Assembly: GCF_010091925.1 (NCBI RefSeq) | Contig: NZ_WVID01000005.1 | Span: 215,628 to 279,627, forward strand | DNA: 64,000 bases | Reading direction: 5' to 3' | Source: Nostoc sp. B(2019) | GTDB lineage: Bacteria > Cyanobacteriota > Cyanobacteriia > Cyanobacteriales > Nostocaceae | Shown here: positions 21,019 through 47,282 of the stretch, piece after piece | Position numbering within the stretch: the stretch's first letter is position 1 | Layout of the letters: every line of letters starts with the position of its first letter | Translations under genes and position numbers: made by a program | The notes under the pieces: generated by a model | What the model was told of the DNA's origin: nothing | The model's input: the letters and a program-made list of their open reading frames with translations, nothing else | Database searches by the model: none

Positions 21019-22632
21019 ATGATTGATAATGGTCTTTTTCCTAAAACAAATATTGCTCATACACCCTTGAAATGGAAAGGGTCAGATTATCTGCTCAAGA
21101 CAGATGCAAAGCAAATTGAGCACTGTTTACACGATATAGACACACCATTCTATATATTGCACACTGGTTCTAGTATTGCGCTTGCAACAGGTGGAGAAAT
21201 CTCGCCTACAGGAAATTACAATTGCTTAGGCTTAATACCTGCTTTTAATTCTGCGTGCCTTGGTAGTGATGCTTTTAAAAAAGCTCACGGCACAAATTAT
21301 GCATACCAAGCAGGGGCTATGGCTAATGGTATTGCTTCCATTGATTTGGTAACTTCTCTAGGTAAAAAAGGATATTTAAGCTCGTTTGGCGCAGCAGGTT
21401 TACCTTTGAAGAGAGTGGAAGAAGCTATCACAACTCTCCAAGCTACTCTTCATGATGCTCCTTATGCTTTCAATCTTATTCACAGTCCTTCCGAACCCAA
21501 CTTGGAAAGAGAATGTGTGGAATTGTATTTGAAGTATGGAATAAAAACGGTAGAAGCGTCTGCTTTTATGAACTTAACGCCTAATATCGTTTATTATCGC
21601 GCTGCTGGACTCTCCCAAGGTAGTGATGGCGAGATTGTAGCTAAAAATAACATTATCGCTAAAATTTCTCGCAGAGAAGTTGCGGAAGTCTTCATGAAGC
21701 CAGCACCAGAGAAGATACTGGAAGATTTGGTATCAAAAGGTCTAATTACTACAGAGCAAAGTGCTTTGGCTCAAAAAGTTCCTGTAGCTAGTGATATCAC
21801 TGTAGAAGCCGATTCAGCGGGGCATACAGATAACAGACCACTTGTTTGTTTACTACCTTTGATTCAAGAGATTAGAAACCGCATCCAACAAGAGTATAAG
21901 TACGAAAAAAACATTAGAGTAGGAGCCGGAGGGGGAATAAGCACACCCCAAGCGGCCTTAGCTGCTTTTGCGATGGGAGCAGACTACATAGTAACTGGTT
22001 CGGTGAATCAAGCCTGTAGAGAGTCTGGAGCATCGGAAATCGTCAAAGCCGCGTTAGCCCAAGCAGACATTGTAGATTTTGCTATGGCTCCTGCCGCAGA
22101 TATGTTTGAAATGGGCGTAAAAGTACAAGTCCTCAAAAGAGGAACGCTTTTTGCTATGCGTGCCCAGAAACTTTATGAAATTTATCGGCAATATGATTCT
22201 ATCGATGAAATTCCGTTGATAGAAAGGAAAAAAATTGAAGAACAGTTGTTTCAAAAAAACTTAGATACGGTGTGGGATGAAACTGTTCAGTTTTTCCAAG
22301 AGCGTGATCCTAGTCAAATTCAGAAAGCTTTAGAAAACCCCAAGAAAAAAATGGCCCTAATTTTTAGGTGGTATTTGGGAAAATCATCTTTTTGGGCTAA
22401 AGCTGGAATGCAAGAAAGAAAAATGGATTATCAAGTATGGTGTGGCCCAGCAATGGGAGCATTCAATGAGTGGGTAAAGGGTTCTTACTTAGAAAAACCA
22501 GAAAACCGTCATGTTATTGATATTGCTGACCATTTGATGAAAGGGGCTGCTTATCTCTTCCGTATCCGTCAACTTAATAGTTTAGGAGTGAATTATGTTG
22601 ATAGTTACGGAACTTATAAAGTAACACCATAA
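21019..22632 (+). CDS. PfaD-like trans-acting enoyl reductase
   Basis: 537 residues, close to the usual PfaD/HglG length. It is an FMN-dependent TIM-barrel protein of the 2-nitropropane dioxygenase/PfaD family that reduces enoyl-ACP intermediates of PUFA-synthase-like iterative PKSs. Diagnostic stretches are AGAMANGIASIDLVTSLGK, FNLIHSPSEPNLE, the flavin-phosphate loop VGAGGGISTPQAALAAFAMG with ADYIVTGSVNQ, and FEMGVKVQVLKRGTLFAMRA. It is the first gene of the core cluster, just after the transposon graveyard. The KS-AT and KS-CLF genes encode no ER domain, so this protein is expected to supply enoyl reduction in trans. Confidence 0.9.
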   Translation: MIDNGLFPKTNIAHTPLKWKGSDYLLKTDAKQIEHCLHDIDTPFYILHTGSSIALATGGEISPTGNYNCLGLIPAFNSACLGSDAFKKAHGTNYAYQAGAMANGIASIDLVTSLGKKGYLSSFGAAGLPLKRVEEAITTLQATLHDAPYAFNLIHSPSEPNLERECVELYLKYGIKTVEASAFMNLTPNIVYYRAAGLSQGSDGEIVAKNNIIAKISRREVAEVFMKPAPEKILEDLVSKGLITTEQSALAQKVPVASDITVEADSAGHTDNRPLVCLLPLIQEIRNRIQQEYKYEKNIRVGAGGGISTPQAALAAFAMGADYIVTGSVNQACRESGASEIVKAALAQADIVDFAMAPAADMFEMGVKVQVLKRGTLFAMRAQKLYEIYRQYDSIDEIPLIERKKIEEQLFQKNLDTVWDETVQFFQERDPSQIQKALENPKKKMALIFRWYLGKSSFWAKAGMQERKMDYQVWCGPAMGAFNEWVKGSYLEKPENRHVIDIADHLMKGAAYLFRIRQLNSLGVNYVDSYGTYKVTP

Positions 22633-22790
22633 TCTTTGCTTTTTCTTGCTCTACGTAATTGGAACAACAAAGCATTAATCCAATTATCAAGGCTTGCATT
22701 TTTCTAAAAAGTCCTTGTTTTGATGGGACTTCTCTGGAAATAAATCGTTTCTAATTATTCGCTCAACTTTTAGCAGGTTAGGTATAAGCA

Positions 22791-24116
22791 ATGCCAAAAC
22801 TTAAATTTCCTCAATCTCAACAAGCAGCTAGTCAGGTAAAAAAATATTTACCTGGAGGAGTTCATTATAATTTTCGGTATGAAGGCAAAGATACCATCAT
22901 CCCTTTTAATAGAGGAAAAGGCTCAAGGGTATGGGATTTAGACAATAATGAACACCTTGATTTATTTTGTAAATTTGGTGCTTTGATTGTCGGACACCAA
23001 AATGAAGAATATAATGCAAAGTTAATTTACTACATCAATAAAGTACTTTCCGTAGACCAATGCGATTTGGAAGAACGTGTTTGTGAACGGATTATTCATC
23101 ATGTGCCTAGTGCCGAAATGGTACGTTTCGGGCTGAGTGGTACAGAAGCCGTGCAAAATGCTATTAGGCTTGCGAGAGCCTATACAGGTAAGCCCAAATT
23201 TGTCCGGTTCCAAGGGCATTATCACGGTAATGCAGACAATATTATGGGTGGTAAGCCAACATCTTCTGAGTATCCTGCTCCTGTTGAATATGAAGGAGAT
23301 TACATGGGTACTGATGGACGTGCTCCTAACATTTTGGAGGAGCAGTCTTTCCTCATCCCCTGGAATAATATCGATGCTTTAGAAAAGCTATTGCTATATC
23401 GCGGTGATGAAATTGGCGTTATTTTGATGGAGCCTATCTGTATCAATGGAGGCGGAATAGTACCCTCACCAGGATATTTAGAGAAGGTTAGAGAACTCTG
23501 CGATCAATATCACATAGCTCTTATATTTGATGAAGTGATTACTGGTTTTAGAGTCGCTTTAGGCGGGGCACAATCTCTGTTAGGTGTAACACCTGATATT
23601 ACGGTTTTTGGCAAGGCAATGGGTGGAGGTGCTCTACCAATGTCTGCCATTGTCGGCAAGAAAGAAATTATGCAACTCTATACGGATAATAAAGTTATCC
23701 ATGCCGGGACATTCAATGGTTATCCACTCGGATTAGCTGCTGTATTGGCAACTATTGAGTTGCTTGAAAATGACCCATCATGCTATGAGAGAATGGCGAA
23801 TTACCTGACGCAAATAGGTCAGTCTCTTGTGGATGCCGCAAAAAATGTCGGAATACCAATGGTAGCTCAAGGTGTACCCGGTGTTTTAGTTTTCCATTCT
23901 GAGGCAGCACCACTTACTAAAGCAGAAAGTTACAACGAAACTACCAAGCTTCGGGATATTTTGATTACACGCCTTGCTAGGAACTATGGCATCCAATTTT
24001 CCCCAGTTTCTAGGTTTTTTAGTAATCTGCTCATGGATGACTCTGATGTAACTTTCTTTAAAGAAAGGATAGGTGAAGTCATGACTGATATCGCCAGAAT
24101 TAACGAATTTTTGTAG
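22791..24116 (+). CDS. Class III (GSA-type) aminotransferase
   Basis: A 441-residue PLP enzyme of fold type I, close to glutamate-1-semialdehyde aminomutase and to the aminotransferase domains built into PKSs (McyE, iturin type). Visible residues are the SGTEAVQNAIRLARA phosphate-binding loop, GHYHGNADN, the PLP-pyridine Asp in LIFDEVITGFR and the Schiff-base Lys in FGKAMGGG. It is unlikely to be the housekeeping HemL because it is embedded in the biosynthetic cluster 158 bp after the PfaD gene. It probably aminates a beta-keto-ACP intermediate or the aldehyde made by the thioester reductase (inference). Both chemistries are known for this family. Confidence 0.87.
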   Translation: MPKLKFPQSQQAASQVKKYLPGGVHYNFRYEGKDTIIPFNRGKGSRVWDLDNNEHLDLFCKFGALIVGHQNEEYNAKLIYYINKVLSVDQCDLEERVCERIIHHVPSAEMVRFGLSGTEAVQNAIRLARAYTGKPKFVRFQGHYHGNADNIMGGKPTSSEYPAPVEYEGDYMGTDGRAPNILEEQSFLIPWNNIDALEKLLLYRGDEIGVILMEPICINGGGIVPSPGYLEKVRELCDQYHIALIFDEVITGFRVALGGAQSLLGVTPDITVFGKAMGGGALPMSAIVGKKEIMQLYTDNKVIHAGTFNGYPLGLAAVLATIELLENDPSCYERMANYLTQIGQSLVDAAKNVGIPMVAQGVPGVLVFHSEAAPLTKAESYNETTKLRDILITRLARNYGIQFSPVSRFFSNLLMDDSDVTFFKERIGEVMTDIARINEFL

Positions 24117-24436
24117 GCTTTGACAAAATTACGAAAAATTGGCAAGGTCAAAGTGATTAATGCACTTTAGGGCATAGGGTGCGGAGTGTAATAGCACGCA
24201 CAATTCCCTAACAATTTCATCAATTCAATCTTGTTTATTTGCTTCACGCACAGAGAAGTTGGAGCGGTTCCACCGCTCCGATAACTCTGGACTTAGCGGG
24301 TGGCTTGACTTGAGCAAAGTGTCCGTAGCGCAGAGAAAGAACGTAAAATTAAGACTTTTGCAAGATGGGTAACTGGTCATTGAATAAAGGGGCTTCTTGA
24401 GCGTTCTAGACAATGCATATTTTGAACTTGAGAACA

Positions 24437-25219
24437 ATGCACAGTAACTATCAAATAAAAAGTCAAGATAGAATAGCAGTCGTTACCGGGGCAGCAGGCA
24501 GATTTGGACACCAGATTATACTGCAATTGTTGGCAGCAGGATTTTATGTAGCGGCAACAGATGCTTCTGAAGAAAAGCTGGCAAGCTTGCAGACTTATCT
24601 AGGGGCTTTTGAGAGACTCGGCTTAGTTTTTATGGATGCATGTAATTCGCAAAGCATTCAGAAAGCTGGTGAGCAGATTACTAATCTATTTGGAGAGCAA
24701 ATTTCTGTTTTAGTTAACAATGCAGACATTTTAGAGCCTACTCCTATTTTGTCGTCGGAACATCACGATAAGGTCAGGGAAATTATCGATACCAATCTGA
24801 TCGGAACTTATAATTGCACCAGCTTTTTCTCTAAGTTCATGGTCAAAAGGAAAAGTGGACGCATTATTAACATTGCTTCTATTGCAGGTACTTGGGGAGC
24901 GTCTTTTGCTTCTGCTTATGCTGCTTCTAAGGCTGGGATGATTGCTGCTTCTAGATCTTGGGCCAGGGAACTAGGTTCTTATGGTGTGTGTGTAAATGCG
25001 ATCGCGCCAGGTAGCTGCCATACCAATACGCCAGAGAGTGCTGAGCAACAAAATCCTTCTGTTTCATTGAGAAAAAAGATATTGCTGGATTTTATTCCTG
25101 TTAGTCGTTTTGGCAATGCTGAAGATGTGGCTGAAGTCGTTCTATTTCTAGCCACATGTAAAACCAATTATCTCAACGGAGCGATACTTGATTTAGACGG
25201 TGGGATTAATAAGGGATAA
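24437..25219 (+). CDS. Short-chain dehydrogenase/reductase, copy 1 (altered cofactor loop)
   Basis: 260 residues from ATG 24437, which aligns with the start of the next gene; ATG 24413 would add 8 residues. An SDR of the FabG type with catalytic Ser in IASIAGTWG and YAASK. The coenzyme motif TGxxxGxG is changed (TGAAGRFG, Arg for the middle Gly), and the NNAG motif reads NNAD. Long stretches are identical at the DNA level to the downstream SDR, so the pair is a tandem duplication. The altered glycine and NNAG positions suggest reduced or changed activity. It may be decaying or may work in a heterodimer with copy 2. Confidence 0.82.
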   Translation: MHSNYQIKSQDRIAVVTGAAGRFGHQIILQLLAAGFYVAATDASEEKLASLQTYLGAFERLGLVFMDACNSQSIQKAGEQITNLFGEQISVLVNNADILEPTPILSSEHHDKVREIIDTNLIGTYNCTSFFSKFMVKRKSGRIINIASIAGTWGASFASAYAASKAGMIAASRSWARELGSYGVCVNAIAPGSCHTNTPESAEQQNPSVSLRKKILLDFIPVSRFGNAEDVAEVVLFLATCKTNYLNGAILDLDGGINKG

Positions 25220-25347
25220 ATGAACTTATATAATCTAACTTTATTTGTGAAAGTTATATTTTTGATTTAACGAATTATCAATACTTTCAAAAAACAGATA
25301 ACTAAGGATTTATATAGGAATTAGCAATACATTTTGAACTAAATCAA

Positions 25348-26154
25348 ATGGACAGTAACTATCAAATGATTAATCAAGATAGAATAGCAGTCGTCACCGG
25401 GGCAGCCGGGGGATTTGGACAGCAAATTGTTCTGCAATTGTTGGCAGCAGGATTTTATGTGGCAGCAACAGATATTTTTGAAGACAAGTTAGAAAGCTTG
25501 CAGACTTATGTAGGATCTTCGGAGAAACTTGGCTTATTTGGTATGGATATATGTAATTTGCAAAGCATTCAAAAAGCTGGTGAGCAAATTACTAATTTAT
25601 TTGGAGATAAGATTTTCGTTCTGGTTAATAATGCAGGCATTTTTGGGCGTACTCCAGTTTTGTTGACAGAATATCATGAGAAAGCGCGGCAAATAATCGA
25701 TACCAATCTGATAGGAACTTACAATTGCACCAGCTTTTTCTCTAAGTTCATGGTTAAAAGGAAAAGTGGACGTGTTATTAATATTTCTTCTATGGCGGGT
25801 ACTTGGGGAGCGTCCTTTGCTTCTGCTTATTCTGCTTCCAAGGCTGGGATGATTGCTGCTTCTAAATCTTGGGCCAGAGAACTAGGTACTTATGGCGTGT
25901 GTGTGAATGCGATCGCGCCAGGTATCTTCCAAACCAATATGTTAGAACGCGCCGAGGAAGACGAACGTTCTGTTTCTATGAAAAAAAAGATAGTGCTGGA
26001 TTATATTCCTGCTGGTCGCTTTGGCAATTCTGAAGATGTGGCTGAAGTCGTTCTATTTTTAGCCACATGTAAAACTGATTATCTCAACGGAGCAATATTC
26101 GAGTTAGACGGTGGTCTGAACATCGGCACTTTAGAAAGTATACATTTGAGTTAA
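25348..26154 (+). CDS. Short-chain dehydrogenase/reductase, copy 2
   Basis: 268 residues with an intact classical SDR fold: TGAAGGFG nucleotide loop, NNAG, catalytic Ser in SSMAGTWG and YSASK, and NAIAPG. It most resembles 3-oxoacyl-ACP/alcohol dehydrogenases. It is a tandem paralogue of the preceding gene, and the divergence is concentrated in the middle and at the C-terminus. In hgl-type pathways an extra SDR (HetN) is associated with the lipid synthase. Here it could reduce a keto group of the chain or the aldehyde released by the thioester reductase. The thioester reductase gene starts 9 bp downstream, so the two are translationally close. Confidence 0.87.
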   Translation: MDSNYQMINQDRIAVVTGAAGGFGQQIVLQLLAAGFYVAATDIFEDKLESLQTYVGSSEKLGLFGMDICNLQSIQKAGEQITNLFGDKIFVLVNNAGIFGRTPVLLTEYHEKARQIIDTNLIGTYNCTSFFSKFMVKRKSGRVINISSMAGTWGASFASAYSASKAGMIAASKSWARELGTYGVCVNAIAPGIFQTNMLERAEEDERSVSMKKKIVLDYIPAGRFGNSEDVAEVVLFLATCKTDYLNGAIFELDGGLNIGTLESIHLS

Positions 26155-26163
26155 ACATTGATT

Positions 26164-27360
26164 ATGAATCAAGTAGATTGCAAAAATATTTTCATCACAG
26201 GTGTAACAGGGGTAGTAGGGGGAAGACTCCTATATGAAATTCTTGCCTCTACACAAGCAAATGTATATTGCTTAGTCAGAGCAGATAATGTCCAAAAAGC
26301 TAAACAAAGAATTGTTGATATTCTTGCAGTTTACGACCCACAACATAAAATATTTTCCCAGTTTGAATCAAGAACTAATGTTATAATTGGGGATATTACC
26401 AAGAAACACTTTGGGTTAACAACTGAAGATTATTCTCACCTTGTCCAGCAGATTGATCAAGTTTTTCACGTAGCTGCAAACGTTAACATGGTAGCTAGTT
26501 TTGAAAAATTAGCTGAGGTCAATCTTAGAGGCACTTCAGAAGTTATTGAATTTTGCTTAGCTGGTCAAATTCCCATGCTCCATACATCTAGCTATAGTGT
26601 TATAGGTAGTAAAACTATGGAGCCAGGTTTAGTATTTAAAGAAAGCGATCTTGATATTGGGCAGACTTTTGATAACCAAAATTATGAACACACAAAACTG
26701 CAAGCAGAGCAGCGAGTTCATGAGGCTGGAAATCGAGGACTAAAATGGGTAATTGTGAGACTTGGTGATATTCTCGGTGACAGTAAAACTGGTTGCTATC
26801 CGCTTACAGGTACAACGATTAAAGGCATATATTATGGTATTATTAAATCCATTGTTGACACAGGGCTATTCTTTTTCTTAAAAGATTATTTTTACATTAC
26901 GCCAGTTGATTATGCGGCAGAATCTTCGCTTCATTTAGCGCTTAATCCAGAGGCTTACGGTAAAACTTTTCACATTATTAATCCAGACTGTAAATCATTT
27001 TACGATTTTGTTAATCTGATCGTGGATGTTGGCTACAGAGTCAAAATACTTCCCTATGAAAAATATATATCTCTGTTTAGAGATAATGCAGTCTTCAAAG
27101 AAGGGAAGATTTACAGTTCTTCTTTTGTTAACCTGTTGCTATTTTCGGATCTGATCACAGGTTCAGAATTATCTCCAGATTTGATAGATACTTCAGTGAT
27201 CATTGATACGTCAAATGCCGAAGAATTTCTTTCAAAGGCTAATATTTACTGCCACAAGGTTGATATTGATTTACTCTCAACTTACTTGAAATATTGTGTA
27301 GAAAAAGGCTTTATAGCCTCTCCGGCTAACCAGTCTCCCTTAGCGACTATCAAATATTAA
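26164..27360 (+). CDS. Thioester reductase (Lys2/HglB-type, free-standing)
   Basis: 398 residues from ATG 26164 (TTG 26158 is the alternative). An extended-SDR reductase domain with the NAD(P) loop ITGVTGVVGGRLL, FHVAANVNMV, the TSSYSVIG Ser/Thr region and catalytic Tyr/Lys in YEHTKLQAEQ. This is the domain that reductively releases acyl-ACP as aldehyde or alcohol in NRPS/PKS, HglB/HetM and the zeamine/fabclavine polyamine pathways. The family often carries a fused ACP; this one does not. With no thioesterase in the cluster, it is the best candidate for chain release. Confidence 0.86.
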   Translation: MNQVDCKNIFITGVTGVVGGRLLYEILASTQANVYCLVRADNVQKAKQRIVDILAVYDPQHKIFSQFESRTNVIIGDITKKHFGLTTEDYSHLVQQIDQVFHVAANVNMVASFEKLAEVNLRGTSEVIEFCLAGQIPMLHTSSYSVIGSKTMEPGLVFKESDLDIGQTFDNQNYEHTKLQAEQRVHEAGNRGLKWVIVRLGDILGDSKTGCYPLTGTTIKGIYYGIIKSIVDTGLFFFLKDYFYITPVDYAAESSLHLALNPEAYGKTFHIINPDCKSFYDFVNLIVDVGYRVKILPYEKYISLFRDNAVFKEGKIYSSSFVNLLLFSDLITGSELSPDLIDTSVIIDTSNAEEFLSKANIYCHKVDIDLLSTYLKYCVEKGFIASPANQSPLATIKY

Positions 27361-27472
27361 CCTTCAGCAGATGGGTAGATATCGGGAAAGGTCGTAGTAT
27401 CTCATCAAGCACAAATTCAAAATAGTTGAATGACAGATTTCCAGCACTATTATTAACTTAAAGAGGAAACCG

Positions 27473-28609
27473 ATGACAAACAATTTGAGTACTTTGGATA
27501 CAGCTACAACTAATACAACATCTCCTGTATGTTCTTACAATGAATGGGATCCGCTCGAAGAAGTCATCGTCGGCATTGTCGATGGGGCGATGGTTCCATC
27601 CTGGCATACCATCTATCGGGTAACAATACCTGGTGGTCAGGATAAAGAAGTGAATGAAATGAGCAAGCAGATAGAGCAATATCGGCTTCCTTATCCAAAG
27701 AGGATGATTGAGGCTGCTACTAAGAACCTCAAAGAATTCGTCCATATTCTCGAATCTGAGGGAGTTGTAGTACGTCGTCCTGATGTTGTCAACCATTCTG
27801 CATCCTTTAACACACCTGCTTGGAAGATACTTAATGGCTTCTGTTCTGCAAATCCTCGTGACGTATTTATAGTTATTGGGAATGAGATTATTGAGGCTCC
27901 TATGGCCGATAGGGGTCGTTATTTTGAAACTTGGGGCTATCGTTCTCTGCTCAAAGAGTACTTTAAGGGAGGAGCTAAGTGGACTGCGGTTCCTAGACCA
28001 CAACTACTTGATGAACTCTATGATCAAGATTACAAGTTTCCGGCTCCTGGCGAGAAGATGCGCTATGTAATCAACGAGTTTGAGCCTACCTTTGATGCAG
28101 CGGACTTTGTGCGCTTTGGTCGGGATATTGTTGTACAGAAGAGTCATGTTACCAATAGCTTTGGTATTGCTTGGTTGCAACGTCACATAGGTGATGACTA
28201 TCGCATACATGTGGTAGATTCCCTTTGTCCACAAGCATTACACATCGATACGACCTTGGTTCCCCTCGCTCCAGGGAAGGTATTAGTGAATCCGGTTAAC
28301 TTAGATGTTAATAAACTTCCTGACTTCTTAAAATCTTGGGATATATTGATTGCACCTGAACCTAATAGAACTCCCAAGACACTTTATGGAACAAATGTAA
28401 TCAGCCATTGGGTAAACATGAATGTACTGAGTATAGACGAGGAGAGAGTCGTCGTTGAAAAATCTCAGGAGTACATGATTAAAGCACTAAAAGACTGGGG
28501 ATTTAAACCCATCGTATGTGAGTTTGAAGATTATTATCCATTCTTAGGTTCTTTCCATTGTTCAACACTTGATGTTCGTAGGCGCGGTGTACTCAAGTCT
28601 TATGCTTAA
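27473..28609 (+). CDS. Glycine-amidinotransferase-like enzyme 1
   Basis: 378 residues with a GAGG ribosome binding site. A member of the AGAT family (arginine:glycine amidinotransferase, also StrB, CyrA and SxtG), which moves the amidino group of arginine to an amine through a Cys-amidino intermediate. It shows NEWDPLEEVIVG at the N-terminus, the Asp motif FDAADFVRFGRDI, the His motif HIDTTLVPLAPGKV and the nucleophile Cys363 in FHCSTLDVRRRG. The catalytic set therefore looks complete. It follows the thioester reductase by 112 bp and precedes the KS-AT gene. The acceptor is unknown: either a small starter amine, as in cylindrospermopsin synthesis, or an amine on the finished chain. Confidence 0.9.
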   Translation: MTNNLSTLDTATTNTTSPVCSYNEWDPLEEVIVGIVDGAMVPSWHTIYRVTIPGGQDKEVNEMSKQIEQYRLPYPKRMIEAATKNLKEFVHILESEGVVVRRPDVVNHSASFNTPAWKILNGFCSANPRDVFIVIGNEIIEAPMADRGRYFETWGYRSLLKEYFKGGAKWTAVPRPQLLDELYDQDYKFPAPGEKMRYVINEFEPTFDAADFVRFGRDIVVQKSHVTNSFGIAWLQRHIGDDYRIHVVDSLCPQALHIDTTLVPLAPGKVLVNPVNLDVNKLPDFLKSWDILIAPEPNRTPKTLYGTNVISHWVNMNVLSIDEERVVVEKSQEYMIKALKDWGFKPIVCEFEDYYPFLGSFHCSTLDVRRRGVLKSYA

Positions 28610-28880
28610 TCATTTTTTTGAATAGTCCCTTTTTTTAGATCTTGCACCAGTCTCAAAAACCGCCATAGGTTTCTAACCTATAGCTAATAACCAAAGTTTT
28701 ATCAAGGGGATTAAACCCTATTGTTGGTTAAATCTTCAGTCTAATTAAGTGAACTTAAGTTACTAGCAAAGAAATAATTTTCTTGGCGGGAGACTGAGTA
28801 AAAAGCGCAAGATCTGAAATTTTTCAAAAAATAAATAAGCGATATTTCAACAACTCATTAAATAAAAATAAGGAATAGTA
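28610..28880. other. Gap between amidinotransferase and KS-AT genes
   Basis: About 270 bp. It contains a short hairpin (ATAGGTT / AACCTAT, about 28665-28681) but no T-run and no ORF. It may hold an internal promoter for the synthase genes, but none can be assigned. Confidence 0.4.
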
Positions 28881-31829: not shown

Positions 31830-31861
31830 GTGTGAGAATCAAAATAAATCAGGAGAAAATC

Positions 31862-33016: not shown

Positions 33017-33036
33017 GCAAACCCGATCAATGGAAG

Positions 33037-35451: not shown

Positions 35452-35457
35452 GGTTCA

Positions 35458-39759: not shown

Positions 39760-39814
39760 AAACGTTGTCAGCAAAGATTATCAAGCAAAGTAAAAATTTT
39801 TGGAGCAGATAGTT

Positions 39815-40975
39815 ATGGAAGTCAGCAGTATCACAACAAATAGAGCCATTGAAAATAAAAGCTACGAAGAAGAATTTCAAAGCACAAATACAGATAGCTT
39901 AGTTGTCAACTCATATAATGAATGGGATCCATTAGAAGAAATTGTTGTTGGTAGATTAGAAGGTGCTATTCATCCACCTAAACATATATCTTTATTAGGA
40001 GGAATCCCTAAGAAACTTTATAATGTTCTTTCCTTGGTAGGTGGAAGTAAAGTTTCACAAAGATGGGGTATTGCACCAGCACAAAAAGAATTAGATGAGT
40101 TTATTCATATCCTCGAATCAGAAGGAGTTCAGGTTAGACGCCCTAGTTTTACCGACTATAGTCGGACTTTTTCTACTCCTAACTGGAAATCTAAAGGGAA
40201 CTGCTCAGCTTGCCCACGAGACTGTTTTTTGGTCATCGGAAATGAAATTATTGAAGCACCTATGTCCTGGAGATGCCGTTATTTTGAACGTCATGCTTAT
40301 TACTCTTTATTTAAGGAATATTTTGAGCAAGGCGCAAGATGGACTTCTGCTCCTAGACCGATGCTACTAGATTCTCTATATGACAAAAACTATACTGTCC
40401 CTAAAGATGGAGAATCTATGCGCTATGTTATTAACGAATCTGAAGTTGTTTTTGACGCTGCCGATTTTGTCCGCTGTGGCAGAGATATTTTCGTAACTAA
40501 AAGTAATGTAACTAACGAAGCTGGAATAAACTGGTTACAACGTCATTTAGGAAATGACTTTCGTGTTCATACTATTGAGACACGCTCGAAACAACCTATG
40601 CATATTGACACTACATTTGTGCCTCTTGCACCAGGAAAAGTAATGATTAACCCAGAGTATATTGACGTTAAAAAACTGCCATCAATTTTAAAATCTTGGG
40701 ACATACTAGTTGCACCCAAACCAGTCATTATCAAAGGAGGCTTATTCAGTGAAACAGCTGCTCTGTGTAGTATGTGGTTAAGCATGAATGTCTTGGTTCT
40801 AGATGAAGAACGAGTAATATGTGAAAAATCCCAAGAACCAACAATCCAAGCCTTGAAAGATTGGGGATTTAAACCAATACCCTGCAATTTTTTACACTTC
40901 AATCCCTTTGGAGGTGCATTTCATTGTGCAACTTTAGACATTAGGCGTCGCGGCACATTACAATCCTACTTTTAG
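39815..40975 (+). CDS. Glycine-amidinotransferase-like enzyme 2
   Basis: 386 residues from ATG 39815, preceded by GGAG; the longer frame from TTG 39800 is unlikely. A second AGAT-family enzyme with NEWDPLEEIVVG, FDAADFVRCGRDIF, HIDTTFVPLAPGKV and nucleophile Cys371 in FHCATLDIRRRG, so all catalytic positions look present. It is paralogous to the first amidinotransferase but clearly diverged in the acceptor-facing N-terminal third (HPPKHISLLGGIPKKLYN replaces VPSWHTIYRVTIPGGQ). The two enzymes therefore probably use different acceptors. It follows the PfaC-like gene by 55 bp. Confidence 0.9.
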   Translation: MEVSSITTNRAIENKSYEEEFQSTNTDSLVVNSYNEWDPLEEIVVGRLEGAIHPPKHISLLGGIPKKLYNVLSLVGGSKVSQRWGIAPAQKELDEFIHILESEGVQVRRPSFTDYSRTFSTPNWKSKGNCSACPRDCFLVIGNEIIEAPMSWRCRYFERHAYYSLFKEYFEQGARWTSAPRPMLLDSLYDKNYTVPKDGESMRYVINESEVVFDAADFVRCGRDIFVTKSNVTNEAGINWLQRHLGNDFRVHTIETRSKQPMHIDTTFVPLAPGKVMINPEYIDVKKLPSILKSWDILVAPKPVIIKGGLFSETAALCSMWLSMNVLVLDEERVICEKSQEPTIQALKDWGFKPIPCNFLHFNPFGGAFHCATLDIRRRGTLQSYF

Positions 40976-41027
40976 ACATAATGTAAAAACAACTTACAGC
41001 GCTTTCCAAATATTCAACTACAAATAG

Positions 41028-41046
41028 TAGGGTGGGCATTGCCCAC
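41028..41046. repeat. Interspersed palindrome, second copy
   Basis: GTAGGGTGGGCATTGCCCAC, a hairpin with arms GTGGGC / GCCCAC and loop ATT, shares its left arm with the repeat at 8724. It lies in the gap between the second amidinotransferase and the ACP gene. Confidence 0.6.
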
Positions 41047-41138
41047 AAAAAGCTATTGATGAACATTTGAGATATTGGTGGTAATGCGCACCTTGCACAA
41101 AATCGCTGTAAACATTTGAAAATCCTTCTTAATCGGCC

Positions 41139-41669
41139 ATGAACAACTCTCTTTTATTAAATATTAGCGAGCCTCTAACAGATAAGCAGAGTAATAAAAA
41201 TCCATGCTTTGCAACAGCATCACCAGAAGTTTGGGACTTTCGCATTGATTGTTATAGATATCGGATTTGTAAGCAATGGCTGCAAGCTCGCAACGGCTTT
41301 CCTTTAAATAAGGAAGATATTCAACGCTACCAGCGTATTTTAATGATTTTGAAAGATTTAGCTAAGCTCATGGAAGAAATTAAAACAATAACTCAATCTA
41401 ACCAGTTGAAGAAGGTAAAAGTTTTTGAAAAAGTCCAAAATATTGTTGTAGAAAAGCTGGGAATTGAGCCAGAAAAAGTCACTCCAATCGCAAGTTTTAC
41501 CAGAGATTTGGGAGCGGATTCTTTAGATACGTTAGAACTAATAGTTGCTTTAGAGGAAACATTCAATATTGAAATCTCTAATCAAGCGACTACAAAACTT
41601 GTGACGATACAACACACTATCGATTATATTAGTCAACAACTTGAGGTTGACGTAGAGTTAGCTAATTGA
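41139..41669 (+). CDS. Acyl carrier protein with unusual N-terminal helical domain
   Basis: 176 residues. The C-terminal ~85 residues are a type II ACP with Ser128 in DLGADSLDTLELIVALEETF, a different subtype from the LGIDSIK ACP upstream. The N-terminal ~90 residues (EVWDFRIDCYRYRICKQWLQ, DIQRYQRILMILKDL, AKLMEEI) resemble, from memory, the small C-terminal domain of type ISP restriction-modification/DNA methylase proteins (pattern VWNFYIGGYQVCxKWL, DIxHYQxI). This is a very unusual partner for an ACP. It may be a co-opted protein-docking domain. The protein could carry the starter unit or the chain during amination or release. Confidence 0.8.
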   Translation: MNNSLLLNISEPLTDKQSNKNPCFATASPEVWDFRIDCYRYRICKQWLQARNGFPLNKEDIQRYQRILMILKDLAKLMEEIKTITQSNQLKKVKVFEKVQNIVVEKLGIEPEKVTPIASFTRDLGADSLDTLELIVALEETFNIEISNQATTKLVTIQHTIDYISQQLEVDVELAN

Positions 41670-41715
41670 AGATCAACCTACCACTAGATTAGTATCCAAA
41701 AGAGGTAAATAAGAT

Positions 41716-42486
41716 ATGACCACTTTAACTAGCAATGTTGTGATGCGACCCTATGTTTCTTATTGGGGTATGCACAAGTCGGCCCGGATTTTAGATTTAA
41801 TTACATCACTTTATTTTCCGCTCTATGAGCTTTCGTATAAAGATTTTTTTGCTTATTATCCAGTTCTAGGCTTTGTGGAAGCTTTAGTGTATGAAGTTGA
41901 TGAGGCGGTAGAAGCTCTTCAGGAAAAAGAATTATTTTCTGAAGTCAAAAACTCCTGGAATCAAAAGCATAAAATCATCATTGATGTACTTAAAACAAGA
42001 AACTTGTATCATCCGTTAATTGAACAAGAATTAGAAAATTTAGGAAAATACTTTGAATTAGAAAGTCAGTTATTATCTCAGAAAGACGTAACTTATGAAG
42101 ATATTATCAAAGCTACTGAGCTACGCACTTCTGATATACGTGCTCTGCACGGAATTTTAGTACAAGTAGCTAAAAAGACTTATGATCAAAAAACCTTTGA
42201 TGTTATGTGGCCTTTAGAGGTACTTATTGATATTTACGATGATATTACTGATTATAAAGATGATGTAGATAAAAACCACTACAACACCTACCGCATGTTT
42301 GTTAAGTTCTATGGAAAGAAAGCACCCGATTATCTAAAAAAAGAGTTAGCTCGATACGAGTCTCTATTTGTCAAGAGACTAGATAGTCTACCAAGAAAAG
42401 AGCAAAAAAGATTTATAAAACTTGTATCTGAATTGGAGAAAGACAATTCTGATAAGACTATTCCTCAACCAATCCTGGAATGGTAA
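41716..42486 (+). CDS. Orphan all-helical protein with Asp-rich motif
   Basis: 256 residues with an AGAGG ribosome binding site, 46 bp after the ACP gene. I do not recognise the family with certainty. The protein appears almost entirely helical, without signal or membrane segments. Near residue 172 it has DIYDDITDYKDDVDKNHYNTY, reminiscent of metal-diphosphate-binding Asp motifs in class I isoprenoid synthases; a class I terpenoid-synthase-like fold is a guess. The C-terminus is rich in Lys/Glu. Its position inside the operon makes a biosynthetic role likely. Confidence 0.7.
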   Translation: MTTLTSNVVMRPYVSYWGMHKSARILDLITSLYFPLYELSYKDFFAYYPVLGFVEALVYEVDEAVEALQEKELFSEVKNSWNQKHKIIIDVLKTRNLYHPLIEQELENLGKYFELESQLLSQKDVTYEDIIKATELRTSDIRALHGILVQVAKKTYDQKTFDVMWPLEVLIDIYDDITDYKDDVDKNHYNTYRMFVKFYGKKAPDYLKKELARYESLFVKRLDSLPRKEQKRFIKLVSELEKDNSDKTIPQPILEW

Positions 42487-42507
42487 GGTAATCTGTCGTG
42501 GGCTATT

Positions 42508-42643
42508 TATTAGACCTCTTGCATAAATCAGATTATCAACTGTTAAGCAGATAAGTTTCTCGTTACTCTCTGCGTCTCAAACTTTCCAAGACAGAGACGC
42601 AGAGAAAGAGTTTAAAATTAGGGCTTTTACAATAAGTCTATTA
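42508..42643. mobile_element. MITE-like element with terminal inverted repeats
   Basis: Left end TATTAGACCTCTTGCATAA and right end TTTTACAATAAGTCTATTA are imperfect 19-bp inverted repeats of each other (15 of 19 by eye). Inside is a perfect 12-bp inverted repeat, TCTCTGCGTCTC (42567-42578) and GAGACGCAGAGA (42594-42605). The 136-bp element codes for nothing and fills most of the gap before the amidase gene. A similar internal sequence (cgcagagaaagaacgtaaaa) occurs near 24330. Confidence 0.6.
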
Positions 42644-42655
42644 ATGGAGTAACTA

Positions 42656-44023
42656 ATGATGATTGATCAAGTTTGGGAAAATTCAACTATGGAAGCCATT
42701 GGATATGGTATTGACAATGGCAATATAGATCCACGCGAATTAGTTGAGTATTTTTTAACTAAAATTGATCAAGAAACAGGGAAGGAAAAAATATTTATAG
42801 AGGTTTTTGAACAACAAGCCAAAAATCAAGCAGAAGCCGCATATAAAAGGGCGACTACTAACACACGGCTTTCACTTTATGATGGTATTCCCCTCGTATG
42901 GAAAGACAATTTTGATATCCAAGGTAAACCGACAAGTGCAGGGTTAAAGGTTTTATTGGATAGAGTTGCTCAAAAAGATGCAGTAGCTTACAAAACATCT
43001 GTTGATGCTGGCTTTATTTGCCTTGGTAAAACCAATATGACAGAATTGGCTTTTTCGGGTCTAGGGATTAATCCTACATTCGGGACACCAATAAATCCTT
43101 TTAGTTCTGAGCAAGCAAGAGTTCCCGGTGGTTCTTCGTCAGGTTCAGCTATTGCTGTGGCAAAAGGTTTGTGTTGCGCTGGTATGGGAACTGACACGGG
43201 TGGCTCAATCCGAACACCCGCTGCTTGGAATAATTTAGTTGGTTTAAAAACAACTGCGGGGCTAATTTCAACAGAAGGTGTTATTCCTCTAAGTCAAACA
43301 TTAGATACAGTTGGTTTTATTACTCGTTGCGTTGAAGATGCAGCTACCCTTTACCATGTAATTGCTCAGACTAATAAGATTGATGTTTCGGATATTGGAT
43401 ATAAAGGTTTAAGTTTATTAGTATGTACAAATATTGTTTGGGACGATGCTGATTCTGAAGTTGCGGCTATTTTAGATGCTTCTATAGAAAATATTGCAGC
43501 ACAAGGAGCAATTATTAAAAGGAGCAATATTCCAGAGTTTGAACAAGCACTAAAACTTATTAATACAAAAGGTAATATTGTTAACTATGAGGCAAGTAAA
43601 AATTGGCTAGAATTTTTAGAATCTCATCCTAACTCTATTTCACAAGATATACTAGATAGATTTTATGTAGGAGCAAAAATTCAGGATAGTGATGCTCAAA
43701 AAGTGTATCAGGGGTTGAAAGACCTCAAAAAGCAGTATTTGCAAAGAACGAATAATTATACTGCTGTCATAATGCCAACTGTGGCAAATGTACCACCCAT
43801 TATCAATGATTTAGAACAAAATAGTCAAAAGTACGCTGCAGAGAATCTCTTGTCATTACGAAACACGCGTTTAGCAAATATGCTTGGACTGTGTGCGATT
43901 TCTCTACCTGTGGGATTCACTTCTTCAGGGTTGCCAGTCAGCCTCATGTTGCTAGGAGCACCGTTCTCTGAAGTACTACTTTTACGCCTAGCTTTAGCAC
44001 TCGAAAAGGTATTTTCAAAATAA
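42656..44023 (+). CDS. Amidase signature family hydrolase
   Basis: 455 residues. Amidase-signature enzymes cleave amides or transfer ammonia using a Ser-cisSer-Lys triad. Lys is in PLVWKDNFDIQGKPTSAG, the cis-Ser in GGSSSGSAIAVAKG and the nucleophile region in DTGGSIRTPAAWNNLVGLK. The length fits a stand-alone amidase rather than a GatA, and no gatB/gatC lie nearby. In the cluster it could remove an acyl protecting group, hydrolyse an amide of the product or act in self-resistance. The MITE-like element separates it from the upstream operon, so it may use its own promoter. Confidence 0.88.
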   Translation: MMIDQVWENSTMEAIGYGIDNGNIDPRELVEYFLTKIDQETGKEKIFIEVFEQQAKNQAEAAYKRATTNTRLSLYDGIPLVWKDNFDIQGKPTSAGLKVLLDRVAQKDAVAYKTSVDAGFICLGKTNMTELAFSGLGINPTFGTPINPFSSEQARVPGGSSSGSAIAVAKGLCCAGMGTDTGGSIRTPAAWNNLVGLKTTAGLISTEGVIPLSQTLDTVGFITRCVEDAATLYHVIAQTNKIDVSDIGYKGLSLLVCTNIVWDDADSEVAAILDASIENIAAQGAIIKRSNIPEFEQALKLINTKGNIVNYEASKNWLEFLESHPNSISQDILDRFYVGAKIQDSDAQKVYQGLKDLKKQYLQRTNNYTAVIMPTVANVPPIINDLEQNSQKYAAENLLSLRNTRLANMLGLCAISLPVGFTSSGLPVSLMLLGAPFSEVLLLRLALALEKVFSK

Positions 44024-44132
44024 CCCCTCTAGGACTTACGCATTGTACAAATGGATATCATCTGCACTAACAAAAATATATCGTCTCACGTTTTTTCCAA
44101 TCATCCTTTGATAAGTTTGGTTATGAGGTAGC

Positions 44133-45740
44133 ATGGTGAGTTGCAAACAGATTGTCTGGTTAAAGTTTTTAGTCATCGTCCTATTGTTACTGGGTGTGTT
44201 TTTTCGCTTCGTCAATCTTGACCGAAAAATCTACTGGTTTGATGAGACTTTTACTTCATTACGGATTTCTGGTTACACACAACAGGAAGCAGTAAGGCAA
44301 GTCTGCGATGGAAACGAAATTGGTCTTGCAGATTTACAGAAATATCAGCTTCCCACTCTTGGAAGAACTTCAATAGATACTATTAAATCTTTGGCAGTGG
44401 AAGACGCACAACATCCACCGCTATACTTTCTGATGGCGCGGTTTTGGGTGCAATGGTTTGGCAGTTCAGTCGTGGTAACGAGAAGTTTGTCTGCTTTAAT
44501 TAGCTTGTTAGCGTTCCCTTGTATCTATTGGTTATGCCTGGAATTATTTAAGTCATCTTTGATGGGATGGGTAGCAATTGCACTGTTGGCTGTGTTGCCA
44601 TTCCATGTACTATACGCACAAGAAGCGCGGCAGTATAGCTTGTGGACTGTAACAATTTTGCTATCAAGCGCAACACTGCTACGAGCAATGCGACTAAAAA
44701 CAAAGTTTAGCTGGGGAATATACGCGGCTACTGTAGCATTGGGGCTATATACATTTCTGTTTTCTGGGTTTGTGGCAATTGCTCATGGTATCTATGTAGT
44801 TGCAACTGAAAGCTTCCGATTAAGCAAGACCGTTACTGCCTATTTACTTGCGTCTCTAATAGGGCTTTTAGCTTTTATGCCCTGGTTGTTGGTTGTTATT
44901 ATTCAGTTAGCCCAAGTTCAAAAGACAACGAACTGGACATCTGACACTAAGATATCTCTTTTAGAATTAATTGCAGCGTGGGCTATTAACATTAGCTATT
45001 TTTTCGTTGATTTTAACTACGATTTTGATCGAACTTTTGATAACACTATATTGGAATACATGCAGCTATGTTTGATTCCTTTTATCTTAGTTTTGGTAGG
45101 ATATTCAATTTATTTTCTCTATCGCAAAGCTTCAAAGCGGGTTTGGCTGTTTGTCTCAATATTAATTGTGATTCCAGCGCTACCCCTAGTAATACCTGAT
45201 CTAATTTGGGGAGGGATTCGATCAATACAACCTCGGTATCTAATCCCTTCCTATTTGGGTATTCAGTTAGCTGTTAGTTACCTTCTGACCACTCAAATTA
45301 CCTCAACCTTTGTTAATATCTGGCAACAGAAGCTTTGGCAGTTTATCAAGGTTGCGTTGATCTCAGTTGGAATCTTGTCCTGTGCAATCAGTTCTCAAGC
45401 AGATACCTGGCGGAATAAGTACCTTAATATCTATACTCCCCAAGTGGTTCAGATTATCAACAAAGCTACTCACCCACTTTTGATTACTTCCTGTCAGCTA
45501 AATGGTATAGGTGATGAACTATCTCTCAGCCATCTGCTTGCTCCAAAGGTACGGCTTCAGTTGGTGAATGAGCTAAATGTGCCTCAAATTTCTAATAGTT
45601 TCAGCGATGTATTTTTATATCTTCCTAACCACAACCTTCCTTTAGAATTATTACGAGAGAAGCTTGAGAAAGGGCAGAAATATAAAATAGAGGATATTTA
45701 CCCCGACAAGCTCCAGCTTTGGAAAATAGTCAAACTATAG
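44133..45740 (+). CDS. GT39/ArnT-like membrane glycosyltransferase
   Basis: A 535-residue polytopic membrane protein with about 11-12 hydrophobic helices. The N-terminal loop (IYWFDETFTSLRISGY) holds the acidic DE motif of the GT-C fold, ArnT/PMT/dolichyl-phosphate-mannose mannosyltransferase type, followed by the extracytoplasmic QHPPLYFLMARFWVQWFG stretch. A second signature, LPFHVLYAQEARQYSLW, is usual for this group. Such enzymes transfer a sugar from a polyprenyl-phosphate donor outside the cytoplasmic membrane. If part of the cluster, it would glycosylate the product during or after export. It is preceded by GAGG and starts 109 bp after the amidase. Confidence 0.83.
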   Translation: MVSCKQIVWLKFLVIVLLLLGVFFRFVNLDRKIYWFDETFTSLRISGYTQQEAVRQVCDGNEIGLADLQKYQLPTLGRTSIDTIKSLAVEDAQHPPLYFLMARFWVQWFGSSVVVTRSLSALISLLAFPCIYWLCLELFKSSLMGWVAIALLAVLPFHVLYAQEARQYSLWTVTILLSSATLLRAMRLKTKFSWGIYAATVALGLYTFLFSGFVAIAHGIYVVATESFRLSKTVTAYLLASLIGLLAFMPWLLVVIIQLAQVQKTTNWTSDTKISLLELIAAWAINISYFFVDFNYDFDRTFDNTILEYMQLCLIPFILVLVGYSIYFLYRKASKRVWLFVSILIVIPALPLVIPDLIWGGIRSIQPRYLIPSYLGIQLAVSYLLTTQITSTFVNIWQQKLWQFIKVALISVGILSCAISSQADTWRNKYLNIYTPQVVQIINKATHPLLITSCQLNGIGDELSLSHLLAPKVRLQLVNELNVPQISNSFSDVFLYLPNHNLPLELLREKLEKGQKYKIEDIYPDKLQLWKIVKL

Positions 45741-45965
45741 ACTAAATCTTTATCGAAAGTAAAGAGTTAAAGCTAATCTATGTAAGCTTTATATAAGTTA
45801 TTCGATTAACTTTGCAAGAGCTAGTTATGGGGTTGACAAATAAGCGAGAATGCAAACTGAATTAGCGTTATTGCTCTCAAATTTTGCTTGAAAATTATTC
45901 AGGTAAATTGTCAGCACCTCTAAATTTTTTTCACTTTAGAAACAATAAGCGAACTGTCAGTATTT

Positions 45966-47282
45966 ATGGAGCGTATAGTGCAAGAAAATAAGTCTATATT
46001 GTTTGCTTTATATCCTGAATGGGGTGGGTTCATGCCGATGATGGCATTGGCGAAAGCTTTTTCCAGACGCGGATGGGGCGTGCTGTTCGTTCTCCCACCA
46101 GAAGGAGATGAAAAACTCTCCCTTCACAGCCAGCAGGTAGAACATTACAAGAAGTATATAGAAGAACAAGGGTTTCAATATAAGCTTCTAAGGCCATTTC
46201 CCAAGCGGTTCGGAGGATTGCTTGCACAGACCCGCTGTGAAACTGAGATTTTGGCGAATATACTTGAGGACACTATCAAGATTATCAAAGAGTCCAATGT
46301 AGGTCTTGTGCTAATTGATTCAATTGTTTCATTTGTTGCTATTGCAGCTAGAGAATCTGGGGTTCCCTATGTTGGGGTTGGTACGGCATTTGCTGGATTT
46401 ATGAATTCAAGAATTCCGCCTTCAGACTCATCGTTTATTCCAGGTCGCAACTCATGGTCACCATTGATAACTATGTTGGACTGGATGTTATTAGCTTTTG
46501 TGGTGAGATTGTTTACAATATTTCGTCCAAAATACTTCCTCAGAAATTACTTTGGGATAGGAGCCTTCGTGAGGGGTCGTGCGCGTGAGACGGGATTAAA
46601 AGTAGGTTTTTCGGATTACGGCCCGATGTTCAAATCTCCCTTACACTACTTGATGCCAAAAAGACTAGACTTTGAACCTCGTCCTGGAGCCGAGTATCTT
46701 GGGTGTGTTGTGGATCTCTCACGTGCAGATGAGGATTTTAGGGTGGATAAGCTCAGTGGCACTAAACCGCTGATCTACTGCTCGCTGGGTACACGCAGTT
46801 GGGAATATCCTGCCAGCAAGCGCTTCTTCCGAGTTGCGCTTAAGACGTTCCAGCAACGACAAGACTATGAGTTCGTACTCAATATCGGAAACGCTTGCGA
46901 AGTCGAAGATCTTGGGGAGATTCCAGATAATGTGTATGCATGTAAGTGGGTTCCGCAAATGGCGGTTCTGCGGAAAAGTTCAATGATGATCACCAATGGA
47001 GGGATGAATACGATCAAGGAGTGTATCTGTCTTGGTGTCCCGATGATAGTTCTCCCCGCTAGAAACGATCAACCGGGAAACGCAGCGAGGGTAGTCTATC
47101 ATGGGTTGGGTGTACGGGGAGATCTTAGATGGATCGAGCATCAGGAATTGTCCAAACTCATCAATAAGATTTCCAGCGACAACACATATGTTAAGAACAT
47201 TGAGCAAATGCGAAAGGAATTCATGCGCCTGGATAAGTTTGAGACTGGAATTGATTTACTTGAAAGTTATATAGCAGCATAA
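45966..47282 (+). CDS. UDP-sugar glycosyltransferase (UGT/MGT-like), second
   Basis: 438 residues of GT-B fold. N-terminus LFALYPEWGGFMPMMALAKAF, middle VGLVLIDSIVSFVAIAARES, C-terminal donor site WVPQMAVLRKSSMMITNGGM followed by NTIKECICLGVPMIVLPARNDQPGNAARVVYHGLG. This matches zeaxanthin/macrolide/sterol-type glucosyltransferases. It resembles the glycosyltransferase between devC and devA in overall type, but the sequences are clearly different. It closes the run of plus-strand cluster genes, and a strong terminator follows. The acceptor is probably a hydroxyl of the cluster product. Confidence 0.82.
   Translation: MERIVQENKSILFALYPEWGGFMPMMALAKAFSRRGWGVLFVLPPEGDEKLSLHSQQVEHYKKYIEEQGFQYKLLRPFPKRFGGLLAQTRCETEILANILEDTIKIIKESNVGLVLIDSIVSFVAIAARESGVPYVGVGTAFAGFMNSRIPPSDSSFIPGRNSWSPLITMLDWMLLAFVVRLFTIFRPKYFLRNYFGIGAFVRGRARETGLKVGFSDYGPMFKSPLHYLMPKRLDFEPRPGAEYLGCVVDLSRADEDFRVDKLSGTKPLIYCSLGTRSWEYPASKRFFRVALKTFQQRQDYEFVLNIGNACEVEDLGEIPDNVYACKWVPQMAVLRKSSMMITNGGMNTIKECICLGVPMIVLPARNDQPGNAARVVYHGLGVRGDLRWIEHQELSKLINKISSDNTYVKNIEQMRKEFMRLDKFETGIDLLESYIAA

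Follow-up and report, generated by a model that had tools for sequence, protein, structure and literature searches.

Zeamine and fabclavine are broad antibiotics that contain polyamine chains built by synthases resembling those of polyunsaturated fatty acids (PUFA), and cyanobacterial amidinotransferases are best known from saxitoxin and cylindrospermopsin. As described in the portions of two reports available to us, the zeamine and fabclavine systems combine PfaA and PfaC homologues with a PfaD fused to an aminotransferase (glutamate-1-semialdehyde (GSA)-like in zeamine), followed by a 3-oxoacyl-acyl carrier protein (ACP) reductase and a thioester reductase; the zeamine system has no PfaB, and beta-keto groups are transaminated in some cycles (PMC3547906, PMC9113149). 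For zeamine, a terminal transamination of the released aldehyde has also been proposed (PMC3547906, in the same portions). Here we describe a gene cluster in a 64,000-nucleotide stretch of the cyanobacterium Nostoc sp. B(2019) (contig NZ_WVID01000005.1, positions 215,628 to 279,627 of the forward strand; hereafter the window), in which such a gene set is interspersed with two amidinotransferases of the arginine:glycine amidinotransferase (AGAT) type. The cluster most likely represents a zeamine/fabclavine-like polyamino-lipid synthase that took up two amidinotransferases.

An earlier note, made from the letters of this DNA alone, had described a plus-strand run at 21019-47282 that couples a PUFA-type synthase to amination and amidination. 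All genes that it named are open frames at the coordinates it gave, and profile and structure matches bear out their families; the synthase with amination is likewise borne out by families, motifs and gene set. The run comprises the following genes, where SDR stands for short-chain dehydrogenase/reductase, KS for ketosynthase, AT for acyltransferase, KR for ketoreductase, DH for dehydratase, CLF for chain length factor and A-PCP for adenylation and carrier domains; counts refer to the eight clusters, of forms A to C, introduced below.

21019..22632, plus strand: PfaD enoyl reductase (TIGR02814, 671 bits, cut-off 449)
22791..24116, plus strand: GSA-type class III aminotransferase, AMT (PF00202; closest solved structures are GSA aminomutases)
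24413..25219, plus strand: SDR1, 3-oxoacyl reductase-like (PF00106/PF13561)
25348..26154, plus strand: SDR2, 3-oxoacyl reductase-like (PF00106/PF13561)
26158..27360, plus strand: thioester reductase, TR (PF07993, E 3.5e-51; TIGR01746, 202 bits, just below the cut-off of 213)
27473..28609, plus strand: amidinotransferase AGAT1, of the A-PCP-AGAT/SxtG-like branch (6u1r, E 8.4e-164)
28881..31829, plus strand: KS-AT, N-terminal part of PfaA (TIGR02813, 1108 bits, PfaA positions 7-961)
31832..33016, plus strand: ACP1 (PF00550)
33037..35451, plus strand: KR-DH, C-terminal part of PfaA (PF08659, PF14765; PfaA positions 1760-2563)
35458..39759, plus strand: PfaC-like KS-CLF with FabA-type DH (Gln instead of Cys in CLF; FabA motif HFKNDPVMPG)
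39800..40975, probable start ATG 39815, plus strand: amidinotransferase AGAT2, of the branch that includes AGATs of hopanoid loci (6u1r, E 3.8e-134)
41139..41669, plus strand: ACP2 (PF00550; form A only, besides a 41% match in Calothrix)
41716..42486, plus strand: 256-residue protein without family assignment (restricted to form A, in five of the eight clusters)
42656..44023, plus strand: amidase-signature hydrolase (PF01425, E 1e-83)
44133..45740, plus strand: PMT_2-type membrane glycosyltransferase (PF13231; 4 of 8 clusters)
45966..47282, plus strand: UDPGT-type glycosyltransferase (PF00201; 4 of 8 clusters, plus a 22% match in Calothrix)

Gaps between these genes are short (2-296 bases in the whole run, 3-296 bases around AMT, TR and the AGATs). 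PfaA is divided over three genes, with ACP1 between KS-AT and KR-DH. The AGAT2 frame opens 40 bases past KS-CLF-DH, and translation probably starts another 15 bases downstream, at ATG 39815 instead of TTG 39800, because in the close relative LEGE 12411 a stop codon separates these positions. In KR-DH the polyketide synthase (PKS)-type DH motif reads DHVIGKNAVLPA, with its glycine one position away from what we take to be the usual spacing.

The set corresponds in content to zmn10-14 and FclC-G as these are presented in the published portions cited above: PfaA-like KS-AT-ACP-KR, although spread over three genes, PfaC-like KS-CLF-DH, a PfaD enoyl reductase, a GSA-type aminotransferase, a 3-oxoacyl-ACP reductase and a thioester reductase. 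The order PfaD-aminotransferase, SDR, thioester reductase is common to both, stand-alone reductases predicted from SDR1, SDR2 and TR following PfaD-AMT at 24413-27360. As in Xenorhabdus bovienii FclC, a PKS-type DH lies at the C-terminus, and as in zeamine no separate PfaB was recognised among the genes scanned. Unlike zeamine and fabclavine, the cluster has a PfaA split in three and two amidinotransferases, and its amidase (PF01425) belongs to a different family from the nitrilase-type zmn15. No partner among nonribosomal peptide synthetases (NRPS) or PKSs was found among the window proteins scanned; PKS loci are present elsewhere in the host genome and were not examined for a link. This gene set and order lead us to read the cluster as a probable analogue of the polyamine half of zeamine and fabclavine, making a long amine-bearing chain, with amidinotransferases added.

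Motifs expected of active enzymes are widely kept. The pyridoxal phosphate-binding lysine of AMT (FGKAMGG), the YxxxK motif of TR, and the KS cysteine and AT serine motifs of KS-AT occur in all eight clusters, and the phosphopantetheine serine of ACP1 in seven, being a leucine in Nostoc FACHB-892; in the ACP2-like match of Calothrix the aligned serine motif reads LELGYL. From this set we infer the order of the steps, the number of amines, the amine used by each AGAT, chain length, product and export, proceeding from families, motifs, co-conservation, a gene fusion and the separate origin of the AGATs, all of which are observed. The PUFA-like synthase (KS-AT, ACP1, KR-DH, KS-CLF-DH and PfaD) would build a long acyl-ACP chain; AMT would place one or more amines instead of a reduction, as beta-amines on the ACP, and/or on an aldehyde released by TR. 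AGAT2 would then amidinate the amine from the TR/AMT pair and AGAT1 a second amine, probably still tethered to its carrier, while in some lineages the product may be trimmed, decorated and exported by the amidase, a hydroxylase, glycosyltransferases and ABC/Dev-type pumps.

The closest solved thioester reductase to TR is MxaA (4u7w), which reduces to the alcohol. This would suit a different course, in which TR yields an alcohol, AMT makes only in-chain beta-amines in the manner of MycA, and both AGATs act on these to give a poly-guanidino alcohol. The GSA-type aminotransferase of MycA indeed acts on the beta-position of the growing chain, and the same has been proposed for zeamine, but so has transamination of a terminal aldehyde (PMC3547906, in the portions available). 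We regard a poly-guanidino alcohol as quite improbable, also in view of the genome of FACHB-892 discussed below.

Neither AGAT1 nor AGAT2 has a Pfam match. Both align over their full length with solved enzymes of the AGAT family, best with SxtG (6u1r), and the catalytic Cys/His/Asp motifs (FHCxTLD, HID, FDAADF) are kept in AGAT1 of 7/7 clusters and AGAT2 of 8/8, as they are in SxtG, HsvA and human AGAT; CyrA is a further AGAT-type enzyme. The two proteins are thus putative AGAT-type amidinotransferases, with arginine as the presumed amidino donor, and are the sole AGAT-type matches in the host genome at E 1e-30. They differ beside the catalytic histidine (QALHID in AGAT1, QPMHID in AGAT2), and they depart from SxtG-type enzymes in that two distinct branches occur in one cluster and the partner genes would make a PUFA-like chain, not small substrates, whether of the saxitoxin type or others.

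A tree of 67 rows and 320 residues, drawn from 68 distinct domains plus AGAT1 of the window, placed AGAT1 (support 99/94) with the AGAT domains of A-PCP-fused proteins from Laspinema, Oscillatoria, Calothrix NIES-4105 and others, nested in a larger branch (99/97) that includes SxtG-like genes, and AGAT2 in a separate branch (99/97). Duplication within the cluster was considered and discarded, a single clade of AGAT1 and AGAT2 being rejected in a test on 39 hand-chosen rows (p-AU 5e-6). AGAT1 and AGAT2 are therefore of separate origin and reflect two recruitments. A saxitoxin-type locus among the loci compared was recognised by eye from its neighbours (L064), and another (L066) was labelled so as its close sister; no SxtA-type starter synthase was found among the window proteins scanned, no genome-wide search for sxtA having been made.

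In the A-PCP-AGAT proteins the AGAT domain is 75-77% identical to AGAT1 but is fused to adenylation and carrier domains, as identified by Pfam scan in one protein (L085) and by a string match to the adenylation core motif in 5/6. These proteins precede large NRPS-like frames (L065:7691-11194, L073:7715-11119, L085:4984-8394), and would yield N-terminally guanidinylated peptides. Their fusion to loading modules also lends something to the idea that AGAT1 makes a small guanidino acid, such as guanidinoacetate, as a starter, leaving AGAT2 alone to act on the released chain, so that a guanidine would sit at each end. CyrA, which makes guanidinoacetate, offers a precedent. None of the cluster proteins scanned, however, was recognised as an adenylation enzyme or CoA ligase able to activate such a starter, and we hold this route to be unlikely.

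The distribution of the cluster was followed in samples of 217 Nostocaceae genomes, 388 genomes of the order and 386 of the phylum, many of them drafts. Three forms were found among eight genomes. Form A occurs in five (the window, Nostoc MG11, Komarekiella delphini-convector, K. atlantica and aff. Roholtiella LEGE 12411, the last sharing its GTDB genus with the 7.4 Mb host genome), with AGATs and AMT 92-99% identical to those of the window. Form B, in a Scytonema metagenome-assembled genome (MAG) and Calothrix FI2-JRJ7, has one SDR, AGATs and AMT at 75-82%, KS-AT, KR-DH and KS-CLF-DH at 61-73%, and ACP1 at 42-43%; form C is that of Nostoc FACHB-892. Seven genomes, the window included, share the order PfaD, AMT, SDR, TR, AGAT1, KS-AT, ACP1, KR-DH, KS-CLF-DH, AGAT2, and these ten core genes are 61-99% identical to the window in the relatives, except for ACP1 (42-86%). 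The Scytonema MAG has an in-frame TAA in KS-AT (G392:C169:37992-40928) and, near its cluster, an AGAT2 fragment of 72% identity that contains an in-frame stop (G516:C169:47807-48130), and this locus may be decaying or misassembled; in MG11 the span matching SDR1 contains one stop.

Among the 217 Nostocaceae genomes, AGAT2 (at least 80% identity) is present in eight and AMT (at least 75%) in nine, with both in eight, on one contig each. This overlap has a hypergeometric probability of 8e-14 by genome, a value that treats genomes as independent although five of the eight belong to one genus, and of 1.4e-5 by genus (4/4). The order-wide sample, in which at most three PfaD and four AGAT candidates per genome were scored, contained PfaD of at least 75% in three genomes, and in each of them it shared a contig with the AGAT pair; by eye, no other AGAT lay near PfaD among the matches listed. 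In the phylum-wide sample AMT was met at E 1e-100 only in its own genome, and a plasmid search for it returned nothing at E 1e-80. Comparison of the window with the other four form A genomes gave a ratio of nonsynonymous to synonymous substitution (dN/dS) of 0.01-0.11 for AGAT1, 0.05-0.10 for AGAT2 and 0.03-0.08 for AMT, with higher values of 0.13-0.29 for KR-DH, KS-CLF-DH and ACP1. Judged from their sequences, the tailoring genes are not passengers undergoing decay. The co-conservation of amidinotransferases with the synthase, on which the proposal of the earlier note hung, was thus found, AMT lying on the same contig in 8/8 genomes with AGAT2, and the AGATs being under purifying selection, as is AMT.

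These data also bear on heterocyst glycolipid (HGL) synthesis. HGL and hgl-like islands resemble the cluster in having homologues of KS-AT, KR, KS-CLF, PfaD and TR with Dev-type genes nearby, and identities to the HGL genes of the host are 49% for KS-AT, 42% for KS-CLF, 40% for KR, 55% for PfaD and 30% for TR. The cluster differs by an added PKS-type DH, by AMT and the AGATs, and by its separate location, the HGL-type locus of the host lying elsewhere (G000:C32); for this last reason the cluster was rejected as the HGL locus, and its genes, at 30-55% identity, are not taken as orthologues of those there. A second HGL-like synthase set is present in the host genome at G000:C30:529-13443. The synthase could still make a heterocyst-type glycolipid, with the AGATs and AMT as passengers or in the service of another metabolite, as the KS-AT and KS-CLF identities and the nearby Dev-type pumps would allow. 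Yet AMT, TR and the AGATs sit inside the tightly spaced run, recur in seven genomes and evolve under strong constraint, and in FACHB-892 AMT, TR and AGAT2 stand beside a different synthase, so that this explanation, disfavoured already, appears very remote.

Nostoc FACHB-892 retains AMT (80%), TR (63%) and AGAT2 (77-80%) on one contig, where the synthase is of the HGL type (54-58% to the HGL proteins of the window's genome) and PfaD is 54% identical. The cluster (L134-L135, G480:C76:2301-32919) also encodes a carbamoyltransferase, a Rieske oxygenase, a PapA/condensation-like protein and Dev-type pumps; neither a second AGAT, a native KS-AT nor an SDR was found in it. Its TR and the last 260 residues of ACP1 form a single open frame, fused at residue 395/396. 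What separates TR from ACP1 in forms A and B is precisely AGAT1 and KS-AT, and AGAT2 of FACHB-892 is sister to that of Calothrix (100/99). In the simplest history, reconstructed from these sequences, deletion of AGAT1 and KS-AT would have fused the flanking TR and ACP1. AMT, TR and AGAT2 would then have survived a change of synthase, while AGAT1 left with the native one, as far as one genome can tell. This pattern of retention and loss supports a single route through TR, AMT and AGAT2 and links AGAT1 with the synthase; it favours a predicted TR-AMT-AGAT2 path to the guanidine, and fits a terminal path of this kind better than amines confined to the chain and released as an alcohol. The joint loss of AGAT1 and native KS-AT would also suit a guanidino starter.

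Relatives of AGAT2 offer a possible lipid precedent. Its wider branch (29 rows, 100/97) includes AGATs, 58-61% identical to AGAT2, from the Scytonema MAG, three Rhizonema MAGs and Iningainema. Beside these AGATs, HpnI and HpnK were seen in 5/5 loci (L049:4352-12295, L050, L051, L052, L053) and HpnJ also in three; two AGATs stand in tandem in L049, L050 and L053. The Hpn names were assigned by NCBIfam in L049 and L052, where the HpnI score of 296 is below the cut-off (310). Dolichospermum, Aphanizomenon, a Gloeocapsa enrichment and a Nostoc have been reported to contain guanidine-substituted bacteriohopanetetrol cyclitol ether and glucosamine (PMC5642901, in the portion available). AGATs beside hopanoid genes, together with the reported guanidine hopanoids, suggest that the AGAT2 branch can handle amines on lipids. 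The portion available of PMC12583986 contained no amidino or guanidine word in a word search and was of no help on guanidine hopanoids. This lipid precedent is weakened by members of the branch in Desulfobacteraceae, Syntrophobacteraceae and Streptomyces that have no such neighbours, apart from HpnJ-like matches of 27-28%, and several cyanobacterial members were examined with flanks of 1.5 kb only. The contig scan for AGAT2 relatives used short seed patterns, which can miss relatives.

Several observations weigh against a polyamino-lipid synthase with two recruited amidinotransferases. Its likeness to zeamine and fabclavine is one of gene set and published descriptions, and AMT is a separate gene next to PfaD, whereas the zeamine aminotransferase is fused to it. 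With MxaA as its nearest solved relative, release of an aldehyde by TR is not assured, and the action of AGAT1 on a tethered amine is suggested by kinship. Either a single AMT has to supply both AGATs or the second amine comes from elsewhere, and the cluster proteins scanned contain no recognisable adenylation domain for loading an amino acid as starter. The AGAT1 sequences from the seven clusters were not recovered as one clade, although a single clade was not rejected (p 0.35). The genus-level count is small (four genera, with five of eight genomes in one), and PfaD (dN/dS 0.07-0.11) and KS-AT (0.07-0.12) are about as constrained as the AGATs. Genome G417 carries AMT (75%) without any AGAT, and no synthase was seen in the 40 kb read; this orthologue (G417:C189:62940-64253, L138) is perhaps a relic or has another use. 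Set against the evidence above, these points leave a zeamine/fabclavine-like synthase with two amidinotransferases the likely reading. Its fullest version, a new lipid class of PUFA-synthase polyamines with two guanidines, one set by AGAT1 on the carrier and one by AGAT2 on the released terminal amine, with one lineage having swapped the synthase and added carbamoyl and Rieske tailoring, we put forward tentatively, as a possibility that falls somewhat short of probable.

The locus appears to extend beyond the core run on both sides, where the following genes were considered.

8963..10153, plus strand: DevB/HlyD-like membrane fusion protein (PF13437/PF16576)
10462..11364, plus strand: fatty acid hydroxylase superfamily protein (PF04116, E 2.8e-29; weakly OlsE-like, far below cut-off)
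11565..12785, plus strand: DevC-like permease, FtsX (PF02687; 44% to the copy of the FACHB-892 cluster, only slightly more than the 39-42% shared with other DevC genes)
12712..14127, plus strand: UDPGT/GT28-like glycosyltransferase (68% homologue directly 3' of AGAT2 in the Calothrix FI2-JRJ7 cluster)
14167..14871, plus strand: DevA-like ABC ATPase (PF00005; 64-67% to copies close to the clusters of Scytonema, Calothrix and FACHB-892)
15066..16679, plus strand: ABC exporter, membrane and ATPase parts (44% homologue inside the FACHB-892 cluster)
16719..17909, plus strand: histidine kinase (HisKA_3), possible regulator (retained in 3/4 close relatives, in the stretches read)
47664..49475, minus strand: ABC exporter (67% identical to a gene inside the Calothrix cluster and, over 201 residues, 73% to one right after AGAT2 in Scytonema)
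49682..50317, minus strand: NarL/LuxR-type response regulator, possible regulator (PF00072, PF00196; retained in 4/4 close relatives)

Homologues of several of these genes lie inside other clusters. In Calothrix the glycosyltransferase and ABC exporter matching 12712-14127 and 47664-49475 follow right after AGAT2, and DevB at 8963 is 54% identical to the DevB inside the FACHB-892 cluster, compared with 38-41% to the Calothrix-adjacent copy and to the two HGL-type copies of its own genome. The functional locus, delimited by such matches, therefore probably spans 8963 to about 49475. The gene run of the earlier note stands, but its limits do not, the locus being wider by comparison with relatives, and the gene at 41716 had been omitted. 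DevC and DevA weigh less for the boundary, because they are little or no closer to cluster-associated genes than to copies of HGL-type loci; the similarity of DevA at 14167 is not specific to the cluster, since the DevA of the HGL-like locus C30 is equally close (67%, against 66% for the FACHB-892 copy). The hydroxylase at 10462 is retained in K. atlantica and LEGE 12411, lies outside the stretch read in MG11 and was not found in K. delphini-convector, where the stretch read does not contain the upstream module.

The glycosyltransferase at 12712-14127 is absent from LEGE 12411, which also has no orthologue of the exporter at 47664-49475. The PMT_2 and UDPGT genes (44133-47282) are missing in LEGE 12411 and outside form A, and for these reasons they and the exporter are regarded as optional; sugars from the two glycosyltransferases, encoded in 4/8 clusters only, are not part of the core. 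Calothrix has a 73% homologue of the amidase, placed about 9.6 kb upstream of its PfaD, and the active-site motifs of the amidase are kept in 6/6; none was found in the Scytonema or FACHB-892 clusters. It is possible that the kinase at 16719 and the response regulator at 49682 regulate the cluster.

The 256-residue protein at 41716-42486 matched no Pfam or NCBIfam family. A role as prenyl synthase was considered after a one-sequence match to a geranylgeranyl diphosphate (GGPP) synthase (E 0.0044) and dropped, and the protein was assigned no family because the match did not recur with a 20-sequence profile. Its dN/dS against the form A relatives is 0.009-0.14. Family members include, besides that of the window, L065:18987-19856, G060:C1:2417284-2417997 and a paralogue at G000:C14; in two other genomes (G130, G060) among 18 with a match, an AGAT gene is located less than 10 kb from the family member.

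In the literature searched, covering titles and abstract openings, no PUFA-type synthase with amidinotransferases is described, and the term pair amidinotransferase and PfaD had no match; the portions available of the main text of a 2026 survey of PUFA-type hybrids (PMC13291983) and of PMC11804610 contain no amidino or guanidine word. If our reading is true, the cluster joins PUFA-type polyamine chemistry to cyanobacterial amidinotransferases. Replacement of an amine by a guanidine usually alters membrane and anion binding. FACHB-892 constitutes a natural experiment, in that comparing its product with one from a Komarekiella strain should reveal the guanidine for which each AGAT is responsible, and the AGATs of the hopanoid loci are candidate genes for the guanidine-substituted hopanoids of cyanobacteria.

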